Source: Rhodoglobus sp.
GTDB lineage: Bacteria; Actinomycetota; Actinomycetes; Actinomycetales; Microbacteriaceae
Direction: 5' to 3'
DNA: 64,000 nt
NCBI GenBank assembly: GCA_025463605.1
Contig: JAODAV010000015.1
Coordinates: forward strand, 1 to 64,000
Below are positions 44,312 through 56,335 of the stretch, in pieces. The number at the start of each line of letters is the position of its first letter. The stretch's first letter is position 1. Made by a program: the position numbers and the translations under genes. The notes below the pieces were generated by a model. It was given only the letters and a program-made list of their open reading frames with translations, had not been told where the DNA came from and ran no database searches.

Positions 44312-44575
44312 ATGAACTGGAGTGGCCTGGTCTTCGTGATCGTCGGGCTGGCCGCGGTCGTGGCCTCGAACTTCCTCATCCGTCATCGTGCGGAGTACTA
44401 CGAGTTCATGGCGGGGCAGCAGGAGCAGATATTCGGCAGCAAAGGCCGAAGGTTGTCGGCGGGCGGCTCCTCTAACATCTTCCTGGCTGTCGGCATCGTT
44501 GGAGTCTTGATCGGAGCTGCCGCCGCCGTGCTCGGACTTCTGACGCTCGTCGGTGCTCTGCAGCCTCCGAACTAG
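44312..44575 (+). CDS. Small two-helix membrane protein
   Basis: This 87-residue protein begins MNWSGLVFVIVGLAAVV, followed by a hydrophilic segment (IRHRAEYYEFMAGQQEQIFG) and a second helix (NIFLAVGIVGVLIGAAAAVLG). GAGGAG precedes the ATG. It has no recognised domain. It lies 28 bp upstream of another membrane protein gene in the same direction, so the two are probably co-transcribed, perhaps with the NACHT gene further on. Confidence 0.75.
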   Translation: MNWSGLVFVIVGLAAVVASNFLIRHRAEYYEFMAGQQEQIFGSKGRRLSAGGSSNIFLAVGIVGVLIGAAAAVLGLLTLVGALQPPN

Positions 44576-44603
44576 CGCGATCGAGCGAGAAGGAGTTCAT
44601 GCG

Positions 44604-45164
44604 GTGGCGATCACGATGAAGCAACTGCTGTTCCGGCGCGGGGCGCTCGCAGCGCTCATCACGGCGCTCGGTGTCATGGTCGTGCTGCTACTGCTGCCCC
44701 CTCTGCGGGTACTGGTCGCGGGCATCGCCTCGCTGCGCGTCAACCCGGATGCCGCATTCACGCCCCTGCCGGGCGACTTTCTGCTGCACGTGCTGCCGTT
44801 CGGTGTGGGCGTGTTCCTGAGCCTGTGGATCCTGGCTCCCGTCGCGGCGGAACTCACCCTCGGGTTCGTCGTGACTCGATCAGTGCTCGCGGCAGTCGTC
44901 GGCACGATCGTGCTCTTCCTCACGACGATCGCCTTGGGCATCCCGGGCCTCGTGGCACCCGGGTCGGCCTTCTGGCTTCGCGCCGACGGAATCTCGCTCG
45001 ACTTCGTGCCCGTCGGTCGCACCATCCTGCAATCACTGACTTTCTCCCTGCTGTTCTTCCTCGACGCGGTTGCCATCGTCGTGCTGGGAGCGGTTTTCCA
45101 GTGGAACTGGCTGAAGCGGCATCCCCCCGCTTTCGGCGTCGCGGGACTTATTGATGAGGTGTGA
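44604..45164 (+). CDS. Multi-pass membrane protein upstream of the NACHT gene
   Basis: This 186-residue protein has four predicted helices (AALITALGVMVVLLLLPPLR; HVLPFGVGVFLSLWILAPVA; SVLAAVVGTIVLFLTTIALG; SLTFSLLFFLDAVAIVVLGA). The GTG at 44604 is chosen because AGGAG lies 8 nt upstream; an ATG at 44616 is a weaker choice. It ends 43 bp before the TTG of the NACHT gene, so a common transcript is possible. No family was recognised. Confidence 0.75.
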   Translation: MAITMKQLLFRRGALAALITALGVMVVLLLLPPLRVLVAGIASLRVNPDAAFTPLPGDFLLHVLPFGVGVFLSLWILAPVAAELTLGFVVTRSVLAAVVGTIVLFLTTIALGIPGLVAPGSAFWLRADGISLDFVPVGRTILQSLTFSLLFFLDAVAIVVLGAVFQWNWLKRHPPAFGVAGLIDEV

Positions 45165-45207
45165 AACGCTCTCGAAAAGCTAAGCTGGGCTCAACCCGGG
45201 AGGTGCC

Positions 45208-48200
45208 TTGGCGTACTCGTTCGAGATGGGCGGGGCTGCCCGGTTCGCCGATCTCTGCCTTGCGTTGATCGCTCCCGATCACGAAGAAGTCCAACTGCTC
45301 GAACTAGGCCGGCCCGATAGCGGCCGCTACGGATTCGAACGCTTTCCGGATGTCGCGGACAAGGTCGTGCTGCAGGTCGCATTCGAGCCCGCACTCGAGT
45401 CCGACCCCACGGCGAGTGTGCTCGCGCTACTCGATGCCGAGCGTCCCAAGATCCTGGAACTCGAGCGCCGCGGAGCCCTGCGGTACATCTTCGCGACGAA
45501 CCTGCCGCGGCCCGAGGCGGACCCGGAGACGGGGGTCGATACGGTGCAAGCCTGGCTCGCGGTCAACTGTCCTGTGCCTGCAACGTGCCTCTGGCGGGAA
45601 GATGTGGATCGTCGCCTCGATTGGGCTCCGGCGGCTACCAGCCTGCGATTCCCTGAGATCCTCGACCGCCGCAACGCGGTCGCCGGTGTCCTCGCGACGA
45701 TGTTCGCGGGCTCGGGGGAGCAGTCGCTCGAGGCCCTGCTCGAACTCGTCGTCGTGGCCTACCGCCGCAACCTCGGTCTCACGAGGGACGTCTTCGTCGA
45801 CATCCCGCTGCGGGACGACCCCGACACCACTGCGGCTGACCTGCTGCTCTCGGAGGCATCCTCGCCCCAGGCCCCGTGGCGGCTCCTGGAGGGGGAGAGC
45901 GGCAGCGGCAAGTCGACAGTGGCGCGCTACGTCGGCAACGTCCACGCGGCCCGCTTGCTCGATGACACGGCCTATCTCGCCTCGATCCCGCCTGCGCACG
46001 CGCGAACCTCCTTCCGGATTCCGCTGGCAATCGACGCCCGGGACTACGCGGCGCATCTCGATGCGCTGCAGGCCGCCGATCCGAAGCGCGGGCCCGACCG
46101 GAGCCTCGAGGCCTTCGTGGCGGGCATCCTCGACGCCGCCTTACCCCACGCACCATCGATCTCGGCCGTTCGCACGCTGTTCCGTACTGCCCCGTGGTTC
46201 GTCATGCTCGACGGGCTCGACGAACTCGGCGACGCCGAGTTGGGCGCCCGCGTTTCGACCTCGGTGCTGAGGGCGCTCGCCGCACTCGGCAAGTCGGGCG
46301 CGGACATCCAGTGCCTCGTCGTCACGCGACCCTCCGTGCCGGGCTCCATCCCGAGCCGCGAGCGTTCACTGCTGTCGCCCATCGAGCTCGGCCCGCTCGC
46401 CGGTGCAGGAATCGCCGAGTTGACCGAGCGGTGGCTGGCGAGTCGCGGGCTCACGCCGCAGCGCGCCGCGCCCGTGACCGAGACGTTCGCGCTTCTCCTC
46501 GAATCGCCGTCGTATCGCGACCTCGCAGGCAACCCGATGCACTTGCGCACTCTCCTCGAACTCGCGCTGGTCGATGGCGCCGCCGTTCCCGATCGTCGCA
46601 GCCAGTTGTTCCAGGCGCACGCACGCGGGTCGATCGACGGCGACGAGCTTGCCCTCACAGAGCTCCGCGTGCGCCGCCATCTCGTCCGCGAATTCGCGGG
46701 GTTCGTCGCCTGGACCCTGCACCGGGATGCGCAGACTCCGGCGAGCGCGTTCGGTGCCACGATCGACGGGCTCACGGCCATCGCGACTGACTTCGTCGAC
46801 GCGCACAACCATCCCGCGCACGTCGTCGGTGCGCTGGTCGCAGCGCTGCAGCGCCTGCCGTACGTCGAGCAGAGCGCCGAGGGGCTCGTGCGCTTCCGCG
46901 ACCAGGCGGTGCGGGAGTTTCTCTGCGCGCAGTACCTGCTCGAATCAGAACCTGCGGATGCCCGATCCGCGCGCCTGGCCCGGCTCGTGGGTCGACCGCA
47001 CTGGGCAAACGTCGCGAGGTTCTTCGCCGGCCTGTACTCGGACGGCGACTTGGATGCGCTCGTCGACGACATCATCGCGCTCATCGCCGACGAGGCCCCG
47101 GCGGTGTCATTGCATGCCCGCGAACTCGGGCACGCCATCCTCACCGATCGCGTGATGCGCAGCCGGCCGCGGACCCAGGGCAGGCTCGTGCACGCCGTCT
47201 TCGGAGGGGCGGGGGTCGAGCTTGCAGCCCGCCGCCCCTATGGAAGGGCACCGTTCGCACTCGCTCCCGACTGCGGCCGCGAGGAACTGCGCGACCTGCT
47301 CATGGCAGACTACGTGCGCGACCCTTCGGGCCACATGCGCGAGTCGGTCGCACAGCTGCTCGAGGCGAATGGCGGCCCTGACCTCGTTGCGGAATTCACC
47401 GCGCACGCAGAGGTGGCGACGGGTCAGTCGCGCACGGAGCGGCTTTCTGCGATGTTCCGCTGCGGGGCCCACCGTCACGTGACGGCTGATCGGCTTGAGT
47501 CGCTCATCTACGACGACCAGCCGCAGCCTAAGGAGCTATACCTCCGCCTGACGGCGCTGATCGATGCAGGCACCACCGCCTTCTCGGTTTCGCCGCGCAT
47601 GAGTGCCGATCTGATCGAGCAGCTGCTCAAGTGGGGAGCGACAAGGTCAGCGGGAAATCCCTCACGCATCGCCTCGTTCGCCACAGTGGTCGCGGATGGA
47701 AAGAACACCGTGGCGGTGATCGAGGGTCTGGCGTTCGCGCGAGACTACGACAGCGCGGCAATCGCGATCGAAGCGATCCGCACCGAGTTCGGCGACACGT
47801 GGGCGACGTTCGCGCTCGCGGCCGCTGCGGCGGGCATCCCGCGCCACTCCAATGTCGGAGCCGTGGAGAAGTCGCTAATGGACCCGGCGCTGCCGCTGTG
47901 CGATCGCGCCTTGGCCGCACGGTTCTGGCGAGGCAGGTCCGCGTGGTGGGCGGAGGAACTTGCCGGCGCCACCAGCACGCCGGAGCGGATGTTCTGGGCC
48001 GTCGTGCTCGCTGCCTGGGGCAGTGCCAGCCATGTGACCGACCACCTCGAGGCGCTCGACGCCGCTCTCGCGGCCCTGGACGGGGACGAGTACCTCCTCG
48101 TGGTTTCGGCCACACAGACCGCTCTGCGGGGCCGCGAGGTTCACGGGGGTCGGCCCAGGCCGGCAGTGCCGATCGACAGGGTGAGCGATCGAGCGGCGAT

Positions 48201-48570
48201 CCTGGTCGCGATCGCCTTCTCGTCTGACGAACTGCGCCCGGTCGACCCCGATCGGGCGGGAGCGCTCATCGCCCGCGTCGCCGAGCGCACCGTCGTCGCA
48301 GAGCGGATGCGCGCATTCCAGTCGTGGGCCGGATTGAGCGAGCAAGACGGCCTCGAGTGGGCGGACGTGTTCGCCGAAGCGGCGCGACTCGATTCAGAGC
48401 TCCCCGATGGGGTCGCGGCGCGCGTCTCATCAGACCCGATGCCGCCGGCCGCCGTCGCACGGGTACTCCGCTCGCCCGAACGCTACCCCGGTGTGCTCGT
48501 CACGCACGGGATCCTGAGCGCCGAGGCAGCCGACCGTGCCGTCGACACAGTCGTTGGCGAACCGGTCTAG
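45208..48570 (+). CDS. NACHT-type STAND NTPase with degenerate nuclease-like N-terminus
   Basis: This 1120-residue protein has Walker A GESGSGKST (229-237) and a NACHT-type Walker B, FVMLDGLDELG (331-341; D335, D338, E339), followed by VVTRP, the sensor-like Arg. The first 150 residues resemble a PD-(D/E)xK-type domain fused to STAND proteins (GRPDSGRYGFERF; VVLQVAFEP; FATNLP; LWREDVDRRLDW). The usual Asp and Lys positions appear to be Y41 and A58, so the nuclease may be dead. The region after about residue 420 is helical, with no obvious sequence repeat. The TTG start has GGAGG 5 nt upstream. The stop overlaps the tadC stop (CTAG). Many such proteins act in anti-phage defence; that role here is inferred. 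Confidence 0.82.
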   Translation: MAYSFEMGGAARFADLCLALIAPDHEEVQLLELGRPDSGRYGFERFPDVADKVVLQVAFEPALESDPTASVLALLDAERPKILELERRGALRYIFATNLPRPEADPETGVDTVQAWLAVNCPVPATCLWREDVDRRLDWAPAATSLRFPEILDRRNAVAGVLATMFAGSGEQSLEALLELVVVAYRRNLGLTRDVFVDIPLRDDPDTTAADLLLSEASSPQAPWRLLEGESGSGKSTVARYVGNVHAARLLDDTAYLASIPPAHARTSFRIPLAIDARDYAAHLDALQAADPKRGPDRSLEAFVAGILDAALPHAPSISAVRTLFRTAPWFVMLDGLDELGDAELGARVSTSVLRALAALGKSGADIQCLVVTRPSVPGSIPSRERSLLSPIELGPLAGAGIAELTERWLASRGLTPQRAAPVTETFALLLESPSYRDLAGNPMHLRTLLELALVDGAAVPDRRSQLFQAHARGSIDGDELALTELRVRRHLVREFAGFVAWTLHRDAQTPASAFGATIDGLTAIATDFVDAHNHPAHVVGALVAALQRLPYVEQSAEGLVRFRDQAVREFLCAQYLLESEPADARSARLARLVGRPHWANVARFFAGLYSDGDLDALVDDIIALIADEAPAVSLHARELGHAILTDRVMRSRPRTQGRLVHAVFGGAGVELAARRPYGRAPFALAPDCGREELRDLLMADYVRDPSGHMRESVAQLLEANGGPDLVAEFTAHAEVATGQSRTERLSAMFRCGAHRHVTADRLESLIYDDQPQPKELYLRLTALIDAGTTAFSVSPRMSADLIEQLLKWGATRSAGNPSRIASFATVVADGKNTVAVIEGLAFARDYDSAAIAIEAIRTEFGDTWATFALAAAAAGIPRHSNVGAVEKSLMDPALPLCDRALAARFWRGRSAWWAEELAGATSTPERMFWAVVLAAWGSASHVTDHLEALDAALAALDGDEYLLVVSATQTALRGREVHGGRPRPAVPIDRVSDRAAILVAIAFSSDELRPVDPDRAGALIARVAERTVVAERMRAFQSWAGLSEQDGLEWADVFAEAARLDSELPDGVAARVSSDPMPPAAVARVLRSPERYPGVLVTHGILSAEAADRAVDTVVGEPV

Positions 48571-49439
48571 AAGAACGCTTCGAAGATGGATATGCCCGCG
48601 GGGGTAAGCAGAACGATGAATAGCACCGGCAGTATGCAGAAAATGAGCGGGAAGATCACCTTCACGGGAACCTGCATTGCCTTTTCCTCCGCGCGCTGAC
48701 GGCGCTTGAGACGCATCTCACTCGCCTGCACTCGCAGCACGTCCGCAATCGCAATTCCGTATATGTCCGCCTGTGTGACGGCGCGCGTGAACCGCCGCAG
48801 ATCGACGGACGATGTGCGCGCCGCGAGCGCTTCATAGGCGTCCCTGCGGGTGCGGCCGATGCTCATGTCCTGCAGGGTACGGATGAGCTCTTCCGCGAGC
48901 GGGCCGCTGCCGTTCTGCCCCGCCTTAGCCATCGCCGCTTCGAAGCCCAGCCCGGCCTCGACTGAGATGGTCATTTGGTCGAGGGTGTCGGGGAGTGCCA
49001 GCTGGATCTTCTCCTGCCGTTCGAGTGCCCGGCTCCAGATGAGCAACTCCGGTACGAAGAACGCGAGCAGCGTCGAGAAGATGCCGAGCCCGATGCGAAG
49101 CGGCACGGGATCCATGCTTGCGAACCAATAGGCTGCCAGCGCGATCGGGACGGCGAGCATGGGTTTCGCGAGGATGATCTTGTCGACGGTCCAGCCGACA
49201 GGTCGCCCCGCGAGCATGATGTTTCGCTCGATCATGCCGATGTAGCCCTTGGGGAGTGCCCCGGTCAACGCCTCGCCTCCTGCGCGCTTCGCCTTCGGCG
49301 AGGGCGCAGCAGGGGGACCGTCAGGCATGGGAGTGACTGCGGGAGCTGTGCGTTGGCGACCGCCGCCGATCAGGATGCCGACGACAGCCGCAATGCCTCC
49401 GGCGACGGCAACACAGGCGAGGATGACGATGAGTGACAT
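48567..49439 (-). CDS. tadC: Tad/Flp pilus platform protein TadC (type II secretion F family)
   Basis: This 290-residue inner-membrane protein has an N-terminal helix, a cytoplasmic T2SSF domain (SVEAGLGFEAAMAKAGQNGSG; ELIRTLQDMSIGRTRRDAYE) and a C-terminal hairpin (KVIFPLIFCILPVLFIVLL). It pairs with TadB to form the platform that turns with TadA. It is the last gene of the minus-strand tad operon. It lies 8 bp after tadB and ends convergently with the NACHT gene with a 4-bp overlap. Confidence 0.92.
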   Translation of the reverse strand: MSLIVILACVAVAGGIAAVVGILIGGGRQRTAPAVTPMPDGPPAAPSPKAKRAGGEALTGALPKGYIGMIERNIMLAGRPVGWTVDKIILAKPMLAVPIALAAYWFASMDPVPLRIGLGIFSTLLAFFVPELLIWSRALERQEKIQLALPDTLDQMTISVEAGLGFEAAMAKAGQNGSGPLAEELIRTLQDMSIGRTRRDAYEALAARTSSVDLRRFTRAVTQADIYGIAIADVLRVQASEMRLKRRQRAEEKAMQVPVKVIFPLIFCILPVLFIVLLTPAGISIFEAFF

Positions 49440-49447
49440 GGCGGCGC

Positions 49448-50410
49448 TTAGAACTTCACCTTGACAACGACAGACAACCAGAACGCGCCGACGATCAGCA
49501 GAACGATGGCAAGAGCAAGGGCAATTACGCCGATTATGTGGGTGAAGAAGCCCTGGAAGTAGCCCGGTTGCGTGAAGTACAGGAAAGCGAACACCCCAAT
49601 GGGGAGGGCGATGAGTACCAGCGCGGAAATGCGGCCCTCGGCGCTGAGCGCCTTCACCTGTCGGCGAATCTGATTACGTTCGCGGATGGTCGCTCCCACC
49701 TGGTCGAAGACGTCAGAGAGATTGCCACCGACTTCACGGTTGATCGCGATAGCTTGCGCCACCCACTCGAAGTCGAGACTGCGCATTCGTGCTGCGGTGC
49801 TGGCGAGCGCGTCGCCCAGGTCGCGACCGATTCTCGATTCGTTAATGACACGGGCGAGTTCCTCGCTCGTCGGCGCGTCGATCTCCTTCGAAACAGCGTC
49901 GATCGAGCGAAGTAGGCTGTGGCCGGCACGCAGGCTGCCGGCGAGAAGCGTCAGCGTGTCATCCAGCTGATCGCCGAACTTGGCTCGACGGCTTGAGGTG
50001 CGAACGCTGAGAAGGATTTTTGCGCCGAGCGGGGCCAGGGCGGCAAACAGCGGGATGAGCAGAATGCTCCAGAGCGTGAACCCCCCGACGAGCACCCCGA
50101 GCGCCCCGAGTACGACGCTGGCGCACACGACCATGAGCACGAACGACGAAGGGGCAAGCCTGATGCTGGCTTCCTCGAGTTCAACGGCGCCGAACAAGGG
50201 CTGGCCACGCTTGCTCATGACGGTGTCGATCGCGTGGACCGTGCGATCAGTGACTTTCGTGATCGTCGAAACGTGCACCGCCCCGGGCGCCCGGCGGCGT
50301 TCCAGAGGGACCTTGGGAGGCGGCGGGGCGATGACGAGGAACACGACGACGAATAGCGCGACCAACCCGAAGGCGACCCCGGCGTAGAGAAGGACATCGG
50401 TAGCGTTCAT
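49448..50410 (-). CDS. tadB: Tad/Flp pilus platform protein TadB (type II secretion F family)
   Basis: This 320-residue protein has a similar T2SSF layout: an N-terminal hydrophobic helix (VLLYAGVAFGLVALFVVVFL), another pair near the middle (VCASVVLGALGVLVGGFTLW), a T2SSF core (LLAGSLRAGHSLLRSIDAVS; AINREVGGNLSDVFDQVGAT) and C-terminal helices (FLYFTQPGYFQGFFTHIIG). It overlaps tadA by 4 bp (ATGA). Together with TadC it anchors the pilus motor in the inner membrane. Confidence 0.93.
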   Translation of the reverse strand: MNATDVLLYAGVAFGLVALFVVVFLVIAPPPPKVPLERRRAPGAVHVSTITKVTDRTVHAIDTVMSKRGQPLFGAVELEEASIRLAPSSFVLMVVCASVVLGALGVLVGGFTLWSILLIPLFAALAPLGAKILLSVRTSSRRAKFGDQLDDTLTLLAGSLRAGHSLLRSIDAVSKEIDAPTSEELARVINESRIGRDLGDALASTAARMRSLDFEWVAQAIAINREVGGNLSDVFDQVGATIRERNQIRRQVKALSAEGRISALVLIALPIGVFAFLYFTQPGYFQGFFTHIIGVIALALAIVLLIVGAFWLSVVVKVKF

Positions 50411-51885
50411 CTGGCACCGCGGGTGGTGAGAGGGGCGCTGAAGATCGAAGGAGACAGGGGAATGCCGAGATCGCGGAACCGGTCGGCGAACCTCGGCCGC
50501 ACCCCGGTGGCGACCGCATGTCCGAGAAAGCGCCCGTTGTCGTCGACGCCCGCGGAGTAGTCGAACGCGAACGCCTCCTGGAGGGTGACTATGTCGCCTT
50601 CCATTCCCTGCACCTCGGTGATGTGGGTGATGCGGCGGGTACCGTCGCGAAGGCGGCTGATCTGCACGATCACGTCGATAGCAGACGCGATCTGCTCGCG
50701 CACTGCGCGCAGCGGCAGGTCCATGCCAGCCATGAGCACGAGTGTCTCCATACGTGCAATGGCGTCTCGAGGAGCGTTGGCGTGCACTGTGGAGATCGAG
50801 CCTTCGTGACCGGTATTCATGGCTTGCAGCATGTCCAGGGTCTCACCACCGCGACACTCGCCGATGATAATGCGGTCGGGTCGCATGCGAAGCGAGTTGC
50901 GCACGAGATCGCGAATGGTGATCTCGCCCTTGCCTTCAATATTTGAAGGGCGAGATTCGAGTCGCACCACGTGAACCTGCTGAAGCTGCAACTCCACCGC
51001 GTCCTCGATGGTGACGATGCGCTCTTCTTCGGGAATGAAGCCGCTCAGCACGTTGAGCAGGGTGGTCTTGCCGGTGCCTGTACCACCCGACACGATGATG
51101 TTGAGTCGAGCGAGCACACAGGCCTCGAGCATCGCAGCCATGTCCTGGGTGAGAGTACCGAACGACATAAGGTCCGATACAGTGAGCGGCTCTCTCGAGA
51201 ACTTCCGGATCGTGAGTGAGGAGCCATTGACAGCGAGCGGAGGAATAATCGCGTTGACGCGCGAGCCGTCAGGGAGCCGGGCGTCGACGAGCGGCGACGA
51301 CTCGTCGATGCGTCGTCCAACCTTGGACACGATTCTCTCGATAACGCGCCGCAATTGGGCTTCACTTGTGAACCGCGATCCGCTGAGTGTGAGATGGCCG
51401 TCGCGCTCGACATACACCTGGTCGGGACCGTTGACCATGATCTCCGTGACGCTTGGATCGTCCAGTAGCAATTCGAGTGGCCCGAAGCCGAGGACGTCTG
51501 CGCCGATCTCCTTGATGAGGTTTGCGCGTTCCCCGGAGCTCAGCGGAACCTGCTCCTCGGTGACGATTTGTAGCAGTTCGGACCGTGCGTACGCGTGCAG
51601 TCGCTCCTCAGACAGGCTGGAGTCGTTGAGGCGCGAGCTGATACGTTCGAACAGCTGCTGTGCGGCGCGCTCCTTCAGGTCGGCTAGCGCATCGCGTGCA
51701 CCGGCTGCGGCGCGGGGTTCGACCGGCGCGCGAGTGGCTGGCGTCGCTGGGCGCGCGACGGGAGGAGCGGGCGCTGGCTCGATTGGGGTGACGGCAGCCG
51801 GTGCGACTGGTGCCTGCGCGGGTTCAGCCGTGGGTGACGCCGCGGGAACCCCGCGGGCCGCATCGATACGATCGGTAAGTTTCAT
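50407..51885 (-). CDS. tadA: Tad pilus assembly ATPase TadA/CpaF
   Basis: This 492-residue hexameric secretion ATPase powers Flp pilus assembly. The Walker A is [14 protein letters not shown], the Asp box is [13 protein letters not shown], and the His-containing segment is [20 protein letters not shown]. The Pro/Ala-rich N-terminus (about residues 12-60) is probably disordered; the conserved N-terminal domain starts after it ([17 protein letters not shown]). It overlaps the upstream tadZ-like gene and the downstream tadB gene by 4 bp each, indicating tight coupling. Confidence 0.95.
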
Positions 51886-53162
51886 GCCACGCCTTTCGTT
51901 CGTATGGCAGGCATTGATCGGCCGGCCGGCAGCCCGCCAATACGTGAGATGAGTTCGAGAATGGCCTTAGAAGCCGGGTCTCTCGGACTATCGGCAATGA
52001 TTGGCACTCCGCGATTGGTCGAAAGCGGAACGGCTTTCGAACGCGGGATGATCACGTCGACAGATGCACCGATGGTCTCCTCCGCGTCTCGTCGGTTGAG
52101 CCCGCTGGTCTTGTCGGCTAGGTTCAGCACGATGTGTCGCGATGTCGGTGTTAAACCGATGCTGTTCAGCACGGCGAGTTCCTTACGCAGGGCGCGGAGA
52201 TTGGGCACTGCGAGGCTGCACAACATGACGGCGTCGGTGGCCTGTTCGATGGCCGCCAGGGCATGTTCGCCCAGGCCCGGCGTGGTGTCGATAATGACGT
52301 AGCGGAACACATCGGCGAGCTGGTGGATGAGGTGGGTGAGCTGCTCTCCGTTCACCCTGTCACCATCCGCGGGGGAGTCCGCGCCACCGATCACGTAGAA
52401 GCCTGCGGGGTGGGGCGTAAGGAAGGTCTTGAGCACCATCGTGTCGCGCGCGGCCAGTCCGCTGACCATATCAGGCAGCGTATGGGCCGGATTGAGACCG
52501 AGAACCGTTGCCACATCGCCGAACTGAACGTCCGCATCGACGAGTACTACCGAGTCGCGTGCGACCCTGGCCAGCCCGAGTGCCAGGTTCGTCGCGATGG
52601 TCGTCTTGCCGAGCCCCCCCTTCGGCGAGATTACGGCGATCACCTGTCTGCGCCCCTCGATGTCCCCGCCGCCGATCTCCGGAAGAATCGACTCGTCGGC
52701 GCCGCCGGTCTGAAGATCTGAAATATCGGTCGGAACATCGTCGGAGACGATTTCGTCATCGGGACCCGACGGATGATCTGAGTGCGACTCGCCGCTCGCT
52801 TGAGCTCCCAAGCGCGACACCAGGCCGAGCACATCGTCGTCGGTGGCTGCCGGACTGATGACGGCGTTCGCCCCGATATCGTCCAGCCAACCGTCGATTG
52901 CAGCCGTGTTCTCATGCACGAGCACGATTGCGACCCCAGGGTAGCGTTCGCGCAGTCCCGTCGAAAGCTCGTGCGACGTCTCGAAACTGAGGTAGGGACC
53001 CACGAACACGACGTCGGGCTGCGCATCGGCGATGTGGTTGAAGAAGACCTCAGTGCCGAACGTGAGGAACGCCCCCATGACGCTCGTCAGCTGCGCTCCG
53101 AGCAACCCCTGCAGGCGCAGTTCGTACTCGTGGCTGCGACTGATGAGCAGTACCTCGGTCAT
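51882..53162 (-). CDS. TadZ/CpaE-type ParA/MinD ATPase
   Basis: This 426-residue protein has an N-terminal receiver-like domain (residues 1-125; LISRSHEYELRLQGLLGAQL), an acidic linker, and a MinD/ParA ATPase from about 165 (deviant Walker A SPKGGLGKTTIATNLALG; ILPEIGG precedes it). TadZ/CpaE localises the pilus machinery at a cell site. DVQFGDVATVLGL and VIIDTTPGLGEHAL are Walker A' and B. It overlaps tadA and cpaB by 4 bp. The receiver's phosphoacceptor seems degenerate, as is usual in TadZ. Confidence 0.92.
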   Translation of the reverse strand: MTEVLLISRSHEYELRLQGLLGAQLTSVMGAFLTFGTEVFFNHIADAQPDVVFVGPYLSFETSHELSTGLRERYPGVAIVLVHENTAAIDGWLDDIGANAVISPAATDDDVLGLVSRLGAQASGESHSDHPSGPDDEIVSDDVPTDISDLQTGGADESILPEIGGGDIEGRRQVIAVISPKGGLGKTTIATNLALGLARVARDSVVLVDADVQFGDVATVLGLNPAHTLPDMVSGLAARDTMVLKTFLTPHPAGFYVIGGADSPADGDRVNGEQLTHLIHQLADVFRYVIIDTTPGLGEHALAAIEQATDAVMLCSLAVPNLRALRKELAVLNSIGLTPTSRHIVLNLADKTSGLNRRDAEETIGASVDVIIPRSKAVPLSTNRGVPIIADSPRDPASKAILELISRIGGLPAGRSMPAIRTKGVA

Positions 53163-53875
53163 TGGAAGACAGTCATCCAGTCCACCGTTCGACCGCCGCT
53201 TTCATCCGCGGACTCGGGCTCGAGGGTGAGCCAGACCCAACCGAATTGCTGTGTCCAGGCAACGACTTCGACTTGCGGGGTCGTCAACGCGAGCGTGACC
53301 ATGAGAGCTTCGACCGGCTCCCCGTTGGGCTGGCCCTCGTCGGCCACGATCGCTGTACCGCTTTGAACGGACAGCACGAGCACCTTGTGGTAGCTCTGTC
53401 GTGAGTATTCGGTCTCGCTTAGCTGAGCTGTACTGACGACTCCAACTGTGTCCCCAGCCTGAACGGTGCCCCCAACGACGCGCTCCACGGGGAGTGCGAT
53501 GGTCAGGGCCTGCATGTTCTCGGGTAGAGGTACCTCTCCTCGCGACGCGATCTCCGCGGGGTCGATCCATCGCGCCATGATCAACTGCTCACCCGGCTGA
53601 AGGATCACGTCAGCCTGTAGCCCCCTGAGTTCGCGAAGGTTCGTGACCCTGTCTGGCACTGCCGCAATCGCCGGGATCTCCCGCACCGCGATGTATTGCT
53701 CGATGTTTTCGCCGCTCGTGCCCGCCGGAACCTCGTCCTCTACGACATACACTCGCACGATCTCAGCGCCATTGGCAGCTCGGATGTCTGCGGTACGCAC
53801 ATAGTTGAAGAGCACAATCGTGCCGATGGCGGCCAGCACGATCGCGACGATCGCACCGATGATTCGAGTTTTGAT
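53159..53875 (-). CDS. cpaB: Flp pilus assembly protein CpaB, apparent non-ATG start
   Basis: This 238-residue protein has an N-terminal membrane helix (IIGAIVAIVLAAIGTIVLF) and a SAF/RcpC domain (YVVEDEVPAGTSGENIEQYI; LPVERVVGGTVQAGDTVGVV). CpaB probably guides the pilus through the envelope. The family usually begins MKTRII, but here the codon is ATC (IKTRII at 53875-53873), 10 nt after the TadG stop, with GGGGG just upstream. No ATG, GTG or TTG is available at a sensible site; the next upstream start would give a long overlap with the TadG-like gene in another frame. Initiation at ATC, or a sequence error, is likely. It overlaps tadZ by 4 bp. Confidence 0.78.
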   Translation of the reverse strand: MKTRIIGAIVAIVLAAIGTIVLFNYVRTADIRAANGAEIVRVYVVEDEVPAGTSGENIEQYIAVREIPAIAAVPDRVTNLRELRGLQADVILQPGEQLIMARWIDPAEIASRGEVPLPENMQALTIALPVERVVGGTVQAGDTVGVVSTAQLSETEYSRQSYHKVLVLSVQSGTAIVADEGQPNGEPVEALMVTLALTTPQVEVVAWTQQFGWVWLTLEPESADESGGRTVDWMTVFQ

Positions 53876-53885
53876 GACGTCCCCC

Positions 53886-54860
53886 CTAGTCGATGAGGCG
53901 CACGATCGACGCGCCGAGATCAGGACCGCCGAGTTCGTAGTCCCCCGCGCTGTCCAGCGAAACGTACTCGATGAAATATCCCTGAATTCCACGGCACGAG
54001 CCTGTGCACTTCGGTGCAGCACTGTCGATGCTGACCTGAGGGTACCCCGAACCCGAGAATTTCCAGCCGGTTACTTTGAATGCCGCGAAACCATAGAGGG
54101 TGTACGCCTTGTCCTTGCCGTGCTTGATCTCGAATCCGTTGTGGATCGGCACGAGGATGGTGGAGCCTTCAAGGCCCGACATCGTCTCATCGCAGGCGCC
54201 TGGATATGAGTTGCCCGATTCGCTAGGAGCCGTGCCATTGTCAAGATCGATGAACGATTCGCAGCCCCCGTCGATGCGATCGAGCCACGCGAATCCACCC
54301 GGGATGGGGTGCACGCATCCAGGGGACGTCGGCATTTCGTAGGTGATCAGGAGCAGCTTTCCGGGCGCTCCGGCGATCGCCTTCTCGAACTCGCAGAGTG
54401 AGAGGGCCAAGGGCAGAACGACCGTGCTCGCGCGAGGCGAGCCCCACTCAGCGGTAGCGGTTGCATGCACGGTCGTCTGATCGTGCCCGATCAGCGCCGC
54501 GAACGGGTGATTGATCGCACTATCGCCGGAACTCGCTTCGAGGGTGCTCGTGGATACCACGACAGTGTGGGAATTAGGGAATGACGGGGCGAGGTTGTTC
54601 GCCGCCGCATCGTTGGCGTTTGCGTCGCTGAACGATGCCGCAAGCGCGCCAGAGGCACTGCAAACTCCGTCTTCCGCACATTCCTGGGCTATCGCGAGGG
54701 CCGCCGCATCCGCGCCGTTCTGCAGTTGCGCGCGCTCGGCATAGACGGCTCCCACATCGACGGCTATCGCGACAAAGCCTGTGAGGGGCACTAAGAGAAT
54801 GCCTACGAGTACCGCAACGGCACCCCGCTCGCCGCGCAGTCTCTTGACTATCCGCCGCAT
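53886..54860 (-). CDS. TadG-like pilus protein (Tad domain)
   Basis: This 324-residue protein starts with a charged stretch, then the hydrophobic Tad domain (GAVAVLVGILLVPLTGFVAI; then DVGAVYAERAQLQNGADAAA), typical of TadE/TadG-type pseudopilins. An extracytoplasmic part with several Cys (for example SLCEFEKAI; SPGCVHPIPGG; CDETMSG; CTGSCRG) follows, probably forming disulfides. It overlaps the upstream tadE-like gene by 13 bp and ends 10 nt before the cpaB start codon. It is likely a pilus-associated or adhesin component. Confidence 0.85.
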   Translation of the reverse strand: MRRIVKRLRGERGAVAVLVGILLVPLTGFVAIAVDVGAVYAERAQLQNGADAAALAIAQECAEDGVCSASGALAASFSDANANDAAANNLAPSFPNSHTVVVSTSTLEASSGDSAINHPFAALIGHDQTTVHATATAEWGSPRASTVVLPLALSLCEFEKAIAGAPGKLLLITYEMPTSPGCVHPIPGGFAWLDRIDGGCESFIDLDNGTAPSESGNSYPGACDETMSGLEGSTILVPIHNGFEIKHGKDKAYTLYGFAAFKVTGWKFSGSGYPQVSIDSAAPKCTGSCRGIQGYFIEYVSLDSAGDYELGGPDLGASIVRLID

Positions 54861-55237
54861 CTCATCACTCCTCTGCCTTCCAAGCCAATAATTGGTACGA
54901 AATATCCGCTGAGAAGGGTCACGTCGTACGCGATCGTCACCGTGACCGTTTGGCCGGCATCGCAGTCCGCTGGGGTGATTGTGATATTTCCCGCGGCGAG
55001 TGCCGGGTTCACCGACGGTGCAGCGTTGATCGCATCCGCGCGCGCGAGTGCAGGATCGTTCTCGATCGCCATCGTGCGCGCCGCTTCGCGAGCGGCGTTC
55101 GTGATGGAGATCTGAACATTGAATATGCGGCCGAACTCTATGAGTCCGAGGATGAGAACGATCAGGATCGGCAGTATGAGCGCGAACTCGACTACGGCCG
55201 CCCCACGCTCATCATCGCGCCTCGGGAAGCGCATCAT
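54848..55237 (-). CDS. TadE-like pseudopilin
   Basis: This 129-residue protein has the TadE signature ERGAAVVEFALILPILIVLI followed by LGLIEFGRIF. The Glu after the cleavage region fits processing by the prepilin peptidase. The C-terminal part has two Cys (PADCDAGQTV; VMRCGG). It overlaps the TadG-like gene downstream by 13 bp and follows the flp gene across a hairpin. Confidence 0.9.
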   Translation of the reverse strand: MMRFPRRDDERGAAVVEFALILPILIVLILGLIEFGRIFNVQISITNAAREAARTMAIENDPALARADAINAAPSVNPALAAGNITITPADCDAGQTVTVTIAYDVTLLSGYFVPIIGLEGRGVMRCGG

Positions 55238-55261
55238 GAATGGTCCCCTAAAGTGGGAAAC

Positions 55262-55311
55262 TCTCTCAGCAGAACCGGCAGCAACGAAGTGCGCCGGTTC
55301 CGCCGGAGAGA
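55262..55311 (-). terminator. Hairpin between flp and the tadE-like gene
   Basis: GAACCGGC (55272-55279) pairs with GCCGGTTC (55293-55300), and TCTCTC pairs with GAGAGA outside. It lies just downstream of the pilin stop on the minus strand, before the rest of the tad operon. It probably stops most transcripts and raises pilin mRNA relative to the assembly genes. Confidence 0.7.
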
Positions 55312-55315
55312 TTTC

Positions 55316-55495
55316 CTAAAGGGAGCCCTCGACCGTGGTGAACAGCCCGTTGAGCGCCGCACCGACGAGCGTGACGGTTCCGATCACCGCGACGGCGATG
55401 AGAGCCACCATGAGGCCGTATTCAACGGCAGTTGCGCCTTCGTCTTCGGAGCGAAGCGAGTTGAGGCGCGCGAGAACATTCGTGTAGAGCTTCAT
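55316..55495 (-). CDS. flp: Flp-type major pilin
   Basis: This 59-residue pilin starts MKLYTNVLARLNSLRSEDEG. The processing site is G followed by ATAVEYGLM (Flp motif: after Gly, with Glu at +5 and Tyr at +6), then one hydrophobic helix to the end (VALIAVAVIGTVTLVGAAL). The CpaA/TadV-type peptidase encoded nearby should cleave it. It is short enough to be missed by a 60-residue cutoff, and it is the main structural subunit of the pilus. A stem-loop follows it. The start at 55495 lacks a strong ribosome site; the operon's promoter is probably the one at 55559-55588. Confidence 0.93.
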   Translation of the reverse strand: MKLYTNVLARLNSLRSEDEGATAVEYGLMVALIAVAVIGTVTLVGAALNGLFTTVEGSL

Positions 55496-55558
55496 GACAT
55501 ATCCATTCGGGTTGGAACTAAGTCGCCGGGTTAGGGTTTCCCGGCTCGGGTGCCCAGA

Positions 55559-55588
55559 ACGCTACGTCTGTCCCCACCCTGAGCGCAA
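55559..55588 (-). promoter_or_regulatory. Candidate flp promoter
   Basis: On the minus strand TTGCGC (55583-55588), an 18-bp spacer and TAGCGT (55559-55564) precede flp by about 60 bp. The match to consensus is moderate. The 110-bp gap between the cpaA and flp genes also contains CATTAGATGAATCTCATTC, a short AT-rich segment. Confidence 0.4.
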
Positions 55589-55605
55589 GGGTCTTTGAAT
55601 GAGAT

Positions 55606-56259
55606 TCATCTAATGAAGAGTGCGAGGAAGGCGCCCGCCAGCATCGATGGCCCGAACGGCACGAGGCTTTTCATGCCGATTCGACGGCTAGCGAGGCCTA
55701 TCAGCGACACCACGGCGCCGACGAGGAAGCCGCCCAGAAGAGCGACGAGCCAGGCCGTGAGGCCGAGGTAACCCGCGGCCACACCGACCGTGATCGCGAG
55801 CTTCACGTCGCCCATCCCCATGCTCCGCGGAGAGATGAGTGCGAGCATGAAATACACCGCGAACAACCCGGCCCCTCCCGCGAGGGCGCCGATCGCCGAA
55901 GGCCAGGAACCGTCGACGAGCGCCGCGAGCAGCAAGAGCGCGAAAACCACTCCAGCACTGGGAAGAACCACGACATTCGGCAGGCGCTTCTCACTGAGGT
56001 CCACAATCGTGAGCACCACGGCGGATGCCGCGAACACCAGATACGCGGCGACCTCAAGGGGTGCGGCGAAGCGAGCCGCGATGAGCCCGAACATGATGCC
56101 GGCGGCGATCGAAGCCGCCAGATTCACCCCCCATCCGAGCCTTCGAGGTTCACGCAGGAAGCGCCCCGCGGCGAGCGCCAGGGGAGTGCCGACGGCGAGC
56201 CCCAGGATGACCGCGCCGAGCACAAAGGGAAGCGCGAGGCCCGTCCATTCGAGAACCAT
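55606..56259 (-). CDS. Prepilin peptidase CpaA/TadV (A24 family)
   Basis: This 217-residue aspartic membrane protease has about seven hydrophobic segments. The two catalytic Asp residues are in LTIVDLSEKRLPN and in GMGDVKL, the latter being the conserved GxGD motif. It cleaves and probably does not methylate the Flp and TadE-like leaders. It is the first gene of the minus-strand tad group. The 110-bp gap to flp suggests separate promoters. Confidence 0.93.
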   Translation of the reverse strand: MVLEWTGLALPFVLGAVILGLAVGTPLALAAGRFLREPRRLGWGVNLAASIAAGIMFGLIAARFAAPLEVAAYLVFAASAVVLTIVDLSEKRLPNVVVLPSAGVVFALLLLAALVDGSWPSAIGALAGGAGLFAVYFMLALISPRSMGMGDVKLAITVGVAAGYLGLTAWLVALLGGFLVGAVVSLIGLASRRIGMKSLVPFGPSMLAGAFLALFIR

Positions 56260-56335
56260 GCGGGTCAGTATGGCCGATGGCGATCGTGCCTTGCCTTCTA
56301 TTCCCCAGTACGGTTAACACGGCATCTTCTGGGGT

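Follow-up and report, generated by a model that had tools for sequence, protein, structure and literature searches.

A putative pseudo-nuclease NACHT protein encoded in an accessory region of Rhodoglobus sp.

Introduction

The clade 6 proteins bNACHT25 and bNACHT32 combine an N-terminal PD-(D/E)XK effector with a central NACHT module and a C-terminal helical domain, and the D48A substitution in the effector abolishes both DNA degradation and defence, according to the sections of PMC12169576 that deal with them. Here we analyse a gene of similar layout from Rhodoglobus sp., open reading frame (ORF) 45208-48570 on the + strand of a stretch of 64,000 nucleotides of contig JAODAV010000015.1, which is called the window. 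Its 1120-residue product, a single example, is referred to as the window protein. Unlike bNACHT25 and bNACHT32, whose defence needs D48, it has neither the catalytic Asp nor the catalytic Lys; this comparison is one of description, not of alignment.

In the passages of PMC12169576 describing them, the clade 14 proteins bNACHT02 and bNACHT12 have no discernible effector domain and yet defend, so that an output in which no catalysis is visible would have a precedent. They differ from the window protein in their short C-terminal SNaCT domain, and no pseudo-nuclease is mentioned in those passages. To the same full-length family as the window protein belong actinobacterial plasmid proteins annotated as "large ATP-binding protein" or "NACHT domain-containing protein" (L004-L008, L011; PADLOC candidate PDC-S73). 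These differ in that their DGG(R/I)D...QVK active site is intact. No description of a naturally nuclease-dead restriction endonuclease (REase)-NACHT protein was found among the titles and beginnings of abstracts listed from the open-licence literature.

The explanation that we favour, with a probability of about 50%, is that the gene encodes an NTPase switch under selection with a non-catalytic pseudo-nuclease effector, i. e. a diverged member of the Mrr-REase-NACHT group of STAND (NLR-like) proteins and not a pseudogene. A selected NTP switch with a folded but non-cutting effector is preferred because the Walker core is kept, the codon bias is intact and the REase domain shows no faster divergence than the NACHT module.

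Loss of the active site in the N-terminal domain

Residues 1-165 (45208..45702, + strand; the boundary is our choice) are homologous to an Mrr-type PD-(D/E)xK domain with a PD-QxK site, as judged from alignments and from 39% identity to an intact homolog, and the catalytic Asp and Lys are gone. A PD-QxK site is described for EcoKMrr and MspJI in the part of PMC12707154 consulted. The N-terminal domain of the family is Mrr-like: in a profile scan of 37 such domains, Mrr_cat was detected in 11 at E ≤ 0.1, though not in the domain of the window protein itself; when ten domains were scanned singly, two matched, one of them (L026) above the cut-off. In the family, the active-site segment mostly reads DGG(R/I)D ... 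QVK. At the column of the catalytic Asp, all 67 REase-bearing homologs read, which are not independent and in part near-identical (L011, L038), carry an acidic residue (62 Asp, 5 Glu); the window protein alone has Tyr (codon 41, TAC, 45328..45330, + strand). At the column of the catalytic Lys, the same 67 homologs have Lys without exception, and the window protein alone has Ala (codon 58, GCA, 45379..45381, + strand). The initial annotation had placed Y41 and A58 at the positions expected to be Asp and Lys, and had proposed to look at these columns in other members. The reading was right, and the other members keep both residues apart from the five that have Glu for Asp.

The main alignment contained 65 homolog rows after removal of three duplicates (L122, L108, L121). 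Five of these had no readable REase (the HNH proteins L009, L010 and L053, the frame-broken L041, and L119), which left 60 (57 Asp, 3 Glu). A second batch added five REase domains (4 Asp, 1 Glu) and two HNH proteins, and a third added two (L142 with Glu, L143 with Asp); L144 is the same gene as L115 and was not counted.

The window protein retains Asp37, Gly39, Gln56, Val57, Glu78, Thr97 and Trp129. Among the PD-QxK catalytic residues, however, only Gln56 is left, with Tyr41 and Ala58 in place of Asp and Lys. By PD-QxK chemistry the predicted protein is thus a pseudo-nuclease. Cutting should be abolished in the window protein because D48A stops DNA degradation in bNACHT25 and bNACHT32. A read error as the source of the two residues was rejected, since two codons are affected and at least three base changes are needed to turn Asp and Lys codons into TAC and GCA.

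The nearest relative of the window protein, L051 (the gene of L129; the homolog in G217), comes from a different family of the same order. It has an intact active site (DGGRD and QVK) and is 39% identical to the window protein over residues 1-159 (E 5.9e-27) and 32% over 203-804.

Glu instead of the catalytic Asp (GGRE...QAK) occurs in the REase-NACHT proteins L054, L113, L114, L136 and L142. The first three, which are the ones placed on a tree, lie in a divergent branch of nine rows, the other members of which have Asp.

The NACHT module and the C-terminal array

The NACHT NTPase module spans residues 221-470 (45868..46617, + strand; boundary chosen by us from the alignment). It contains the Walker A motif GESGSGKST at residues 229-237 (45892..45918, + strand) and the Walker B motif DGLDE at residues 335-339 (46210..46224, + strand), both evident from sequence and alignment. 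With Pfam NACHT the window protein scored 18.9 bits, under the cut-off of 26.7, which was passed by four of the seven homologs scanned (top 39.2 bits). All nine core Walker residues, the motif core as picked by us, are retained, and of the 37 remaining near-invariant positions in NACHT, 18 are altered. If losses were random among the near-invariant NACHT columns, the probability of keeping all nine would be P = 0.006.

Residues 471-1120 (46618..48567, + strand) form a mostly helical array in the AlphaFold model and are presumed to be the sensor. The full-length model, with a mean predicted local distance difference test (pLDDT) score of 78.5, gave ten PDB matches at E ≤ 0.001, with NLRP3, SAMD9 and NLRP1 at the top (NLRP3 E 3.3e-6, query-normalised template modelling (TM) score 0.25; SAMD9 E 7.2e-6). 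The query-normalised TM-scores of these matches are low, 0.14-0.28. The order effector - NACHT - sensor and an NLR-like fold are both found in this model. Hence the window protein is correctly assigned as a NACHT protein. The P-loop G229-T237 and the NACHT-type Walker B reported in the initial annotation are where it had put them, and the assignment is strengthened by the homologs above the Pfam cut-off and by the fold matches to NLRP3 and SAMD9.

Coding constraint and divergence

The pseudo-nuclease NACHT/STAND protein gene (45208..48570, + strand) begins with TTG. This start is supported by a probable ribosome-binding site, GGAGG, 4 nt upstream (45199..45203, + strand). The homologs support it too, since the Y-x-(Y/F)-E opening that they have in common precedes the next ATG (residue 7). 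Upstream of the TTG there are just eight more open codons. At its 3' end the gene overlaps a convergent tadC-like ORF by 4 bp (48567-48570). Length, start codon and overlap with the tadC stop are therefore as first annotated. The frame is open throughout its 1120 codons with intact codon bias: GC content at codon positions 1, 2 and 3 (GC1, GC2, GC3) is 74.2/51.2/82.5% over the whole gene, and GC2 is lowest in all seven blocks, at least 11 points under GC1 and GC3.

L051 and the window protein form a pair in the REase tree (98/92) as well as in the NACHT-to-C1 tree (Shimodaira-Hasegawa-like approximate likelihood ratio test 94; 62 of 66 rows used); in the NACHT-only tree (28 rows) the two are not paired. 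The branch of the window protein is long, 1.79 versus 0.49 for L051 in the NACHT-to-C1 tree. When regional trees were made with one simple model (28 of 66 rows), the branches of the window protein and L051 were 1.65/0.54 for the REase domain, 1.79/0.76 for NACHT and 2.73/0.54 for C1. The window protein is 38% identical to L051 in the REase domain, and 41% and 31% in the two NACHT halves. By both measures the dead REase domain appears to diverge no faster than the NACHT module.

Near-invariant columns were counted with 47 of the 65 homologs, after exclusion of HNH proteins, fragments and distant rows. Of these columns the window protein retains 11 of 18 in the REase domain, 28 of 46 in NACHT and 17 of 32 in C1. 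In the linker it has 1 of 6 left, and in residues 721-1120 it has 2 of 6. None of the other 47 members falls below 84% in REase, NACHT or C1; in residues 721-1120 the minimum is 50%.

Fold, and possible active-site migration or decay

Several observations weigh against a selected pseudo-nuclease. A model of the N-terminal domain (168 residues starting at residue 2, with 37 sequences, mean pLDDT 88, predicted TM-score 0.83) had no PDB match at E ≤ 0.001 in Foldseek, where EcoT38I at rank 7 and Avs4 at rank 12 were not significant, and no match in BFVD at the same threshold. The expected Asp-bearing strand, residues 37-44 of the model (38-45 of the protein), is modelled as a helix. This helix lies on the margin of the block with the lowest confidence; the full-length model repeats it, with pLDDT <50 just before and into the helix. 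Taken by itself, the structure model would not be enough to recognise a nuclease fold, and this claim rests on homology. The proposal that the protein has kept the fold and lost cutting is backed by homology to the Mrr-type domain and by the similar divergence of REase and NACHT; the structure model does not back it. For the other option offered at that time, a new effector type, nothing positive was found.

PD-(D/E)XK enzymes are able to relocate catalytic residues, and both inactivated domains and migrated residues are known in this superfamily, as stated in the part of PMC1189080 consulted. The window protein could then still be an active nuclease whose catalytic carboxylate and lysine have migrated elsewhere in the fold; Gln56, Glu78 and Asp37 are retained, and Lys52 is near the site. 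However, the nearest intact homolog has Lys52 as well, next to the canonical Lys, so that there is no clear replacement, and the stretch expected to be the catalytic strand is the low-confidence helix mentioned above. We consider such a migrated site improbable.

Further points concern the tempo of change. P231S and Q233S alter two near-invariant P-loop positions beyond the nine core residues, and GC3 has its minimum in the REase block (75.6%). Under a mixture model (49 rows), a figure obtained for the REase domain only, the branch of the window protein is 2.65 versus 0.52 for L051. Change is fast across the whole protein, with 39-47% of near-invariant positions lost in REase, NACHT and C1, and thus the catalytic losses do not have to be adaptive. 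This apparent whole-protein change of regime counts against a purely targeted catalytic loss. Moreover, the window protein is a single sequence, and no second family member with the same catalytic losses was found.

A rival explanation is a degenerating defence gene, one that was acquired, is no longer useful, loses conserved positions everywhere and remains open by chance. The branch is long in all regions, the many near-invariant losses include the conserved terminal Trp, and the low GC3 of the REase block would fit. So would the distribution of the gene: none of the 26 other genomes of the genus had a match at E ≤ 1e-10. Against decay stand the 1120 open codons, the GC2 well under GC1 and GC3 in all seven blocks and the complete set of core Walker residues. 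We also infer that 1.6-2.7 changes per column are too many for a freely drifting frame to stay free of stop codons. The codon bias, the open frame and the retained Walker residues led us to reject a pseudogene as the first choice, and decay seems unlikely to us, though less so than a migrated site.

Possible function

If the selected pseudo-nuclease is the right explanation, the C-terminal helical array would probably sense a ligand, and ATP would drive assembly through the NACHT module, the NTPase core of which is intact. Assembly would bring the N-terminal domains together. The output would then be non-cutting and could consist in binding or occluding DNA or in recruiting a partner. An intact switch core together with a lost active site would parallel the inactive enzyme domains that are proposed as decoys or dominant-negative effectors in other conflict systems in the part of PMC7159879 seen by us.

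More specifically, the window protein could be a bacterial NLR with a naturally dead nuclease: a switch driven by ATP, the effector of which has turned from a DNA cutter into a DNA- or partner-binding pseudo-enzyme. We put this forward tentatively and at somewhat less than even odds. Such a pseudo-enzyme may act as a reversible DNA trap, as a bait for phage inhibitors that target active relatives, or as a signal to a separate effector. The intact homologs are a ready comparison pair for the window protein.

The protein family

A tblastn search against plasmids matched 12 records, every one from an actinobacterial genus, nine of which were fetched; phage records gave no tblastn match to the window protein. 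A search with the window protein and seven plasmid homologs in one alignment (A1) found at least 36 loci in genome_contigs, titled Actinomycetota, Pseudomonadota, Cyanobacteriota, Acidobacteriota, Spirochaetota and Chloroflexota among others, and three loci in viral_contigs, two of which encode the same protein as other rows. Single-query scans of both collections and sequence searches of solved structures gave nothing useful. Only the best few candidates per genome were scored in the genome searches. With the own genome included, a single query matched 7 of 398 genomes of the family, A1 matched 9 of 396 genomes at the level of the order and 14 of 394 at that of the class, and the wider alignment A3 matched 4 of 346 genomes of the phylum.

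Family members usually carry an Mrr-like REase first, then NACHT and then a helical array. Five homologs (L009, L010, L053, L134, L135) have an HNH-type N-terminus instead of the REase, on a NACHT and C-terminal chassis shared with the window protein; the call is based on Pfam HNH_2 above cut-off for L009 and L010 and on sequence likeness for the other three. This replacement points to an N-terminal effector that can be exchanged.

With PADLOC, PDC-S73 was detected in 9 of 34 A3 members, and the window protein itself matched no model at E ≤ 0.001. It did not match the AVAST (Avs) profiles, the only hit being PtuA at E 0.074, and no Avs was among the four PADLOC families listed for A3. Among 122 ORFs neighbouring the homologs (called with a simple script, no control set), PADLOC reported 193 families; the 25 of these that were listed include type I methyltransferases, RmrA, mad2 and GajB. 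We give these neighbour matches no weight.

The homolog copies L016, L041, L017 and L009 are split across several frames and are either broken genes or affected by sequence errors.

Genomic context

The NACHT gene lies in an insert of ~11.2 kb (45165..56331), between ORF 44553-45164 and the rplU leader, that is absent from all seven congeneric sites inspected (of 26 congeners). These seven share the order rne - DUF4031 - ORF44553 homolog - rplU-rpmA-obgE - proA - nadD without the NACHT gene, an order broken in the window by the insert from 45165 to ~56331. We take the genes concerned to be rne, rplU, rpmA and obgE; the others were named after Pfam. A flanking direct repeat was searched for and not found, none of the five insert genes scanned with Pfam was an integrase, and a promoter scan gave nothing useful. 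Contamination of the assembly was rejected, as the flanks are in conserved congeneric synteny. An intact paralog acting in trans was not seen in the own genome, a weak test at 87% genome completeness in which the genus search scored 7 of 11 candidates at E ≤ 1e-10 and the order, class and phylum searches two each at E ≤ 1e-20.

The insert also holds a tad/Flp pilus locus (48567..56259, - strand), which converges on the NACHT gene. Four of its genes have Pfam matches, to T2SSF, RcpC, Tad and Peptidase_A24; the remaining ones are presumably tad genes as we named them. The locus is itself part of the insert, the closest counterpart found (congener G023) being ~126 kb from the equivalent site. The description of the NACHT gene as standing alone among ordinary genes was thus right in part only, since the gene shares an insert with the tad locus. 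The gene appears to be a patchy accessory gene, which would fit a possible role in defence.

Sharing an insert with the tad locus, with convergent overlapping ends, would also be compatible with a STAND regulator that has a housekeeping or tad-linked role, e. g. control of the pilus locus, instead of one in defence. But the convergent orientation means that there is no shared operon. In addition, G023, with the closest tadC found, has its tad locus at the distance given above in a genome without the NACHT gene, and no tad gene is annotated next to the plasmid homologs displayed. We regard such a role as improbable too, if anything slightly more so than a migrated active site.

At 44312-45164 the window contains two overlapping small ORFs that are membrane-protein-like. 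The second (44553-45164) has a homolog at the same place in all seven congeners inspected, and it evolves fast, with 30-37% identity versus 70-77% for rne. It was rejected as a partner effector because these congeners have the syntenic homolog and no NACHT gene.

Within 12 kb upstream of the L051 gene there are genes for an ApeA_NTD1 protein, an HD phosphohydrolase, a phage integrase and an SNF2 helicase; those for the ApeA_NTD1 protein and the integrase are ~9-12 kb away (L138:4007-6483). GC3 is low in the first two (0.67 and 0.69), like that of the L051 gene itself (0.65), and high in the integrase (0.93) and the helicase (0.95).

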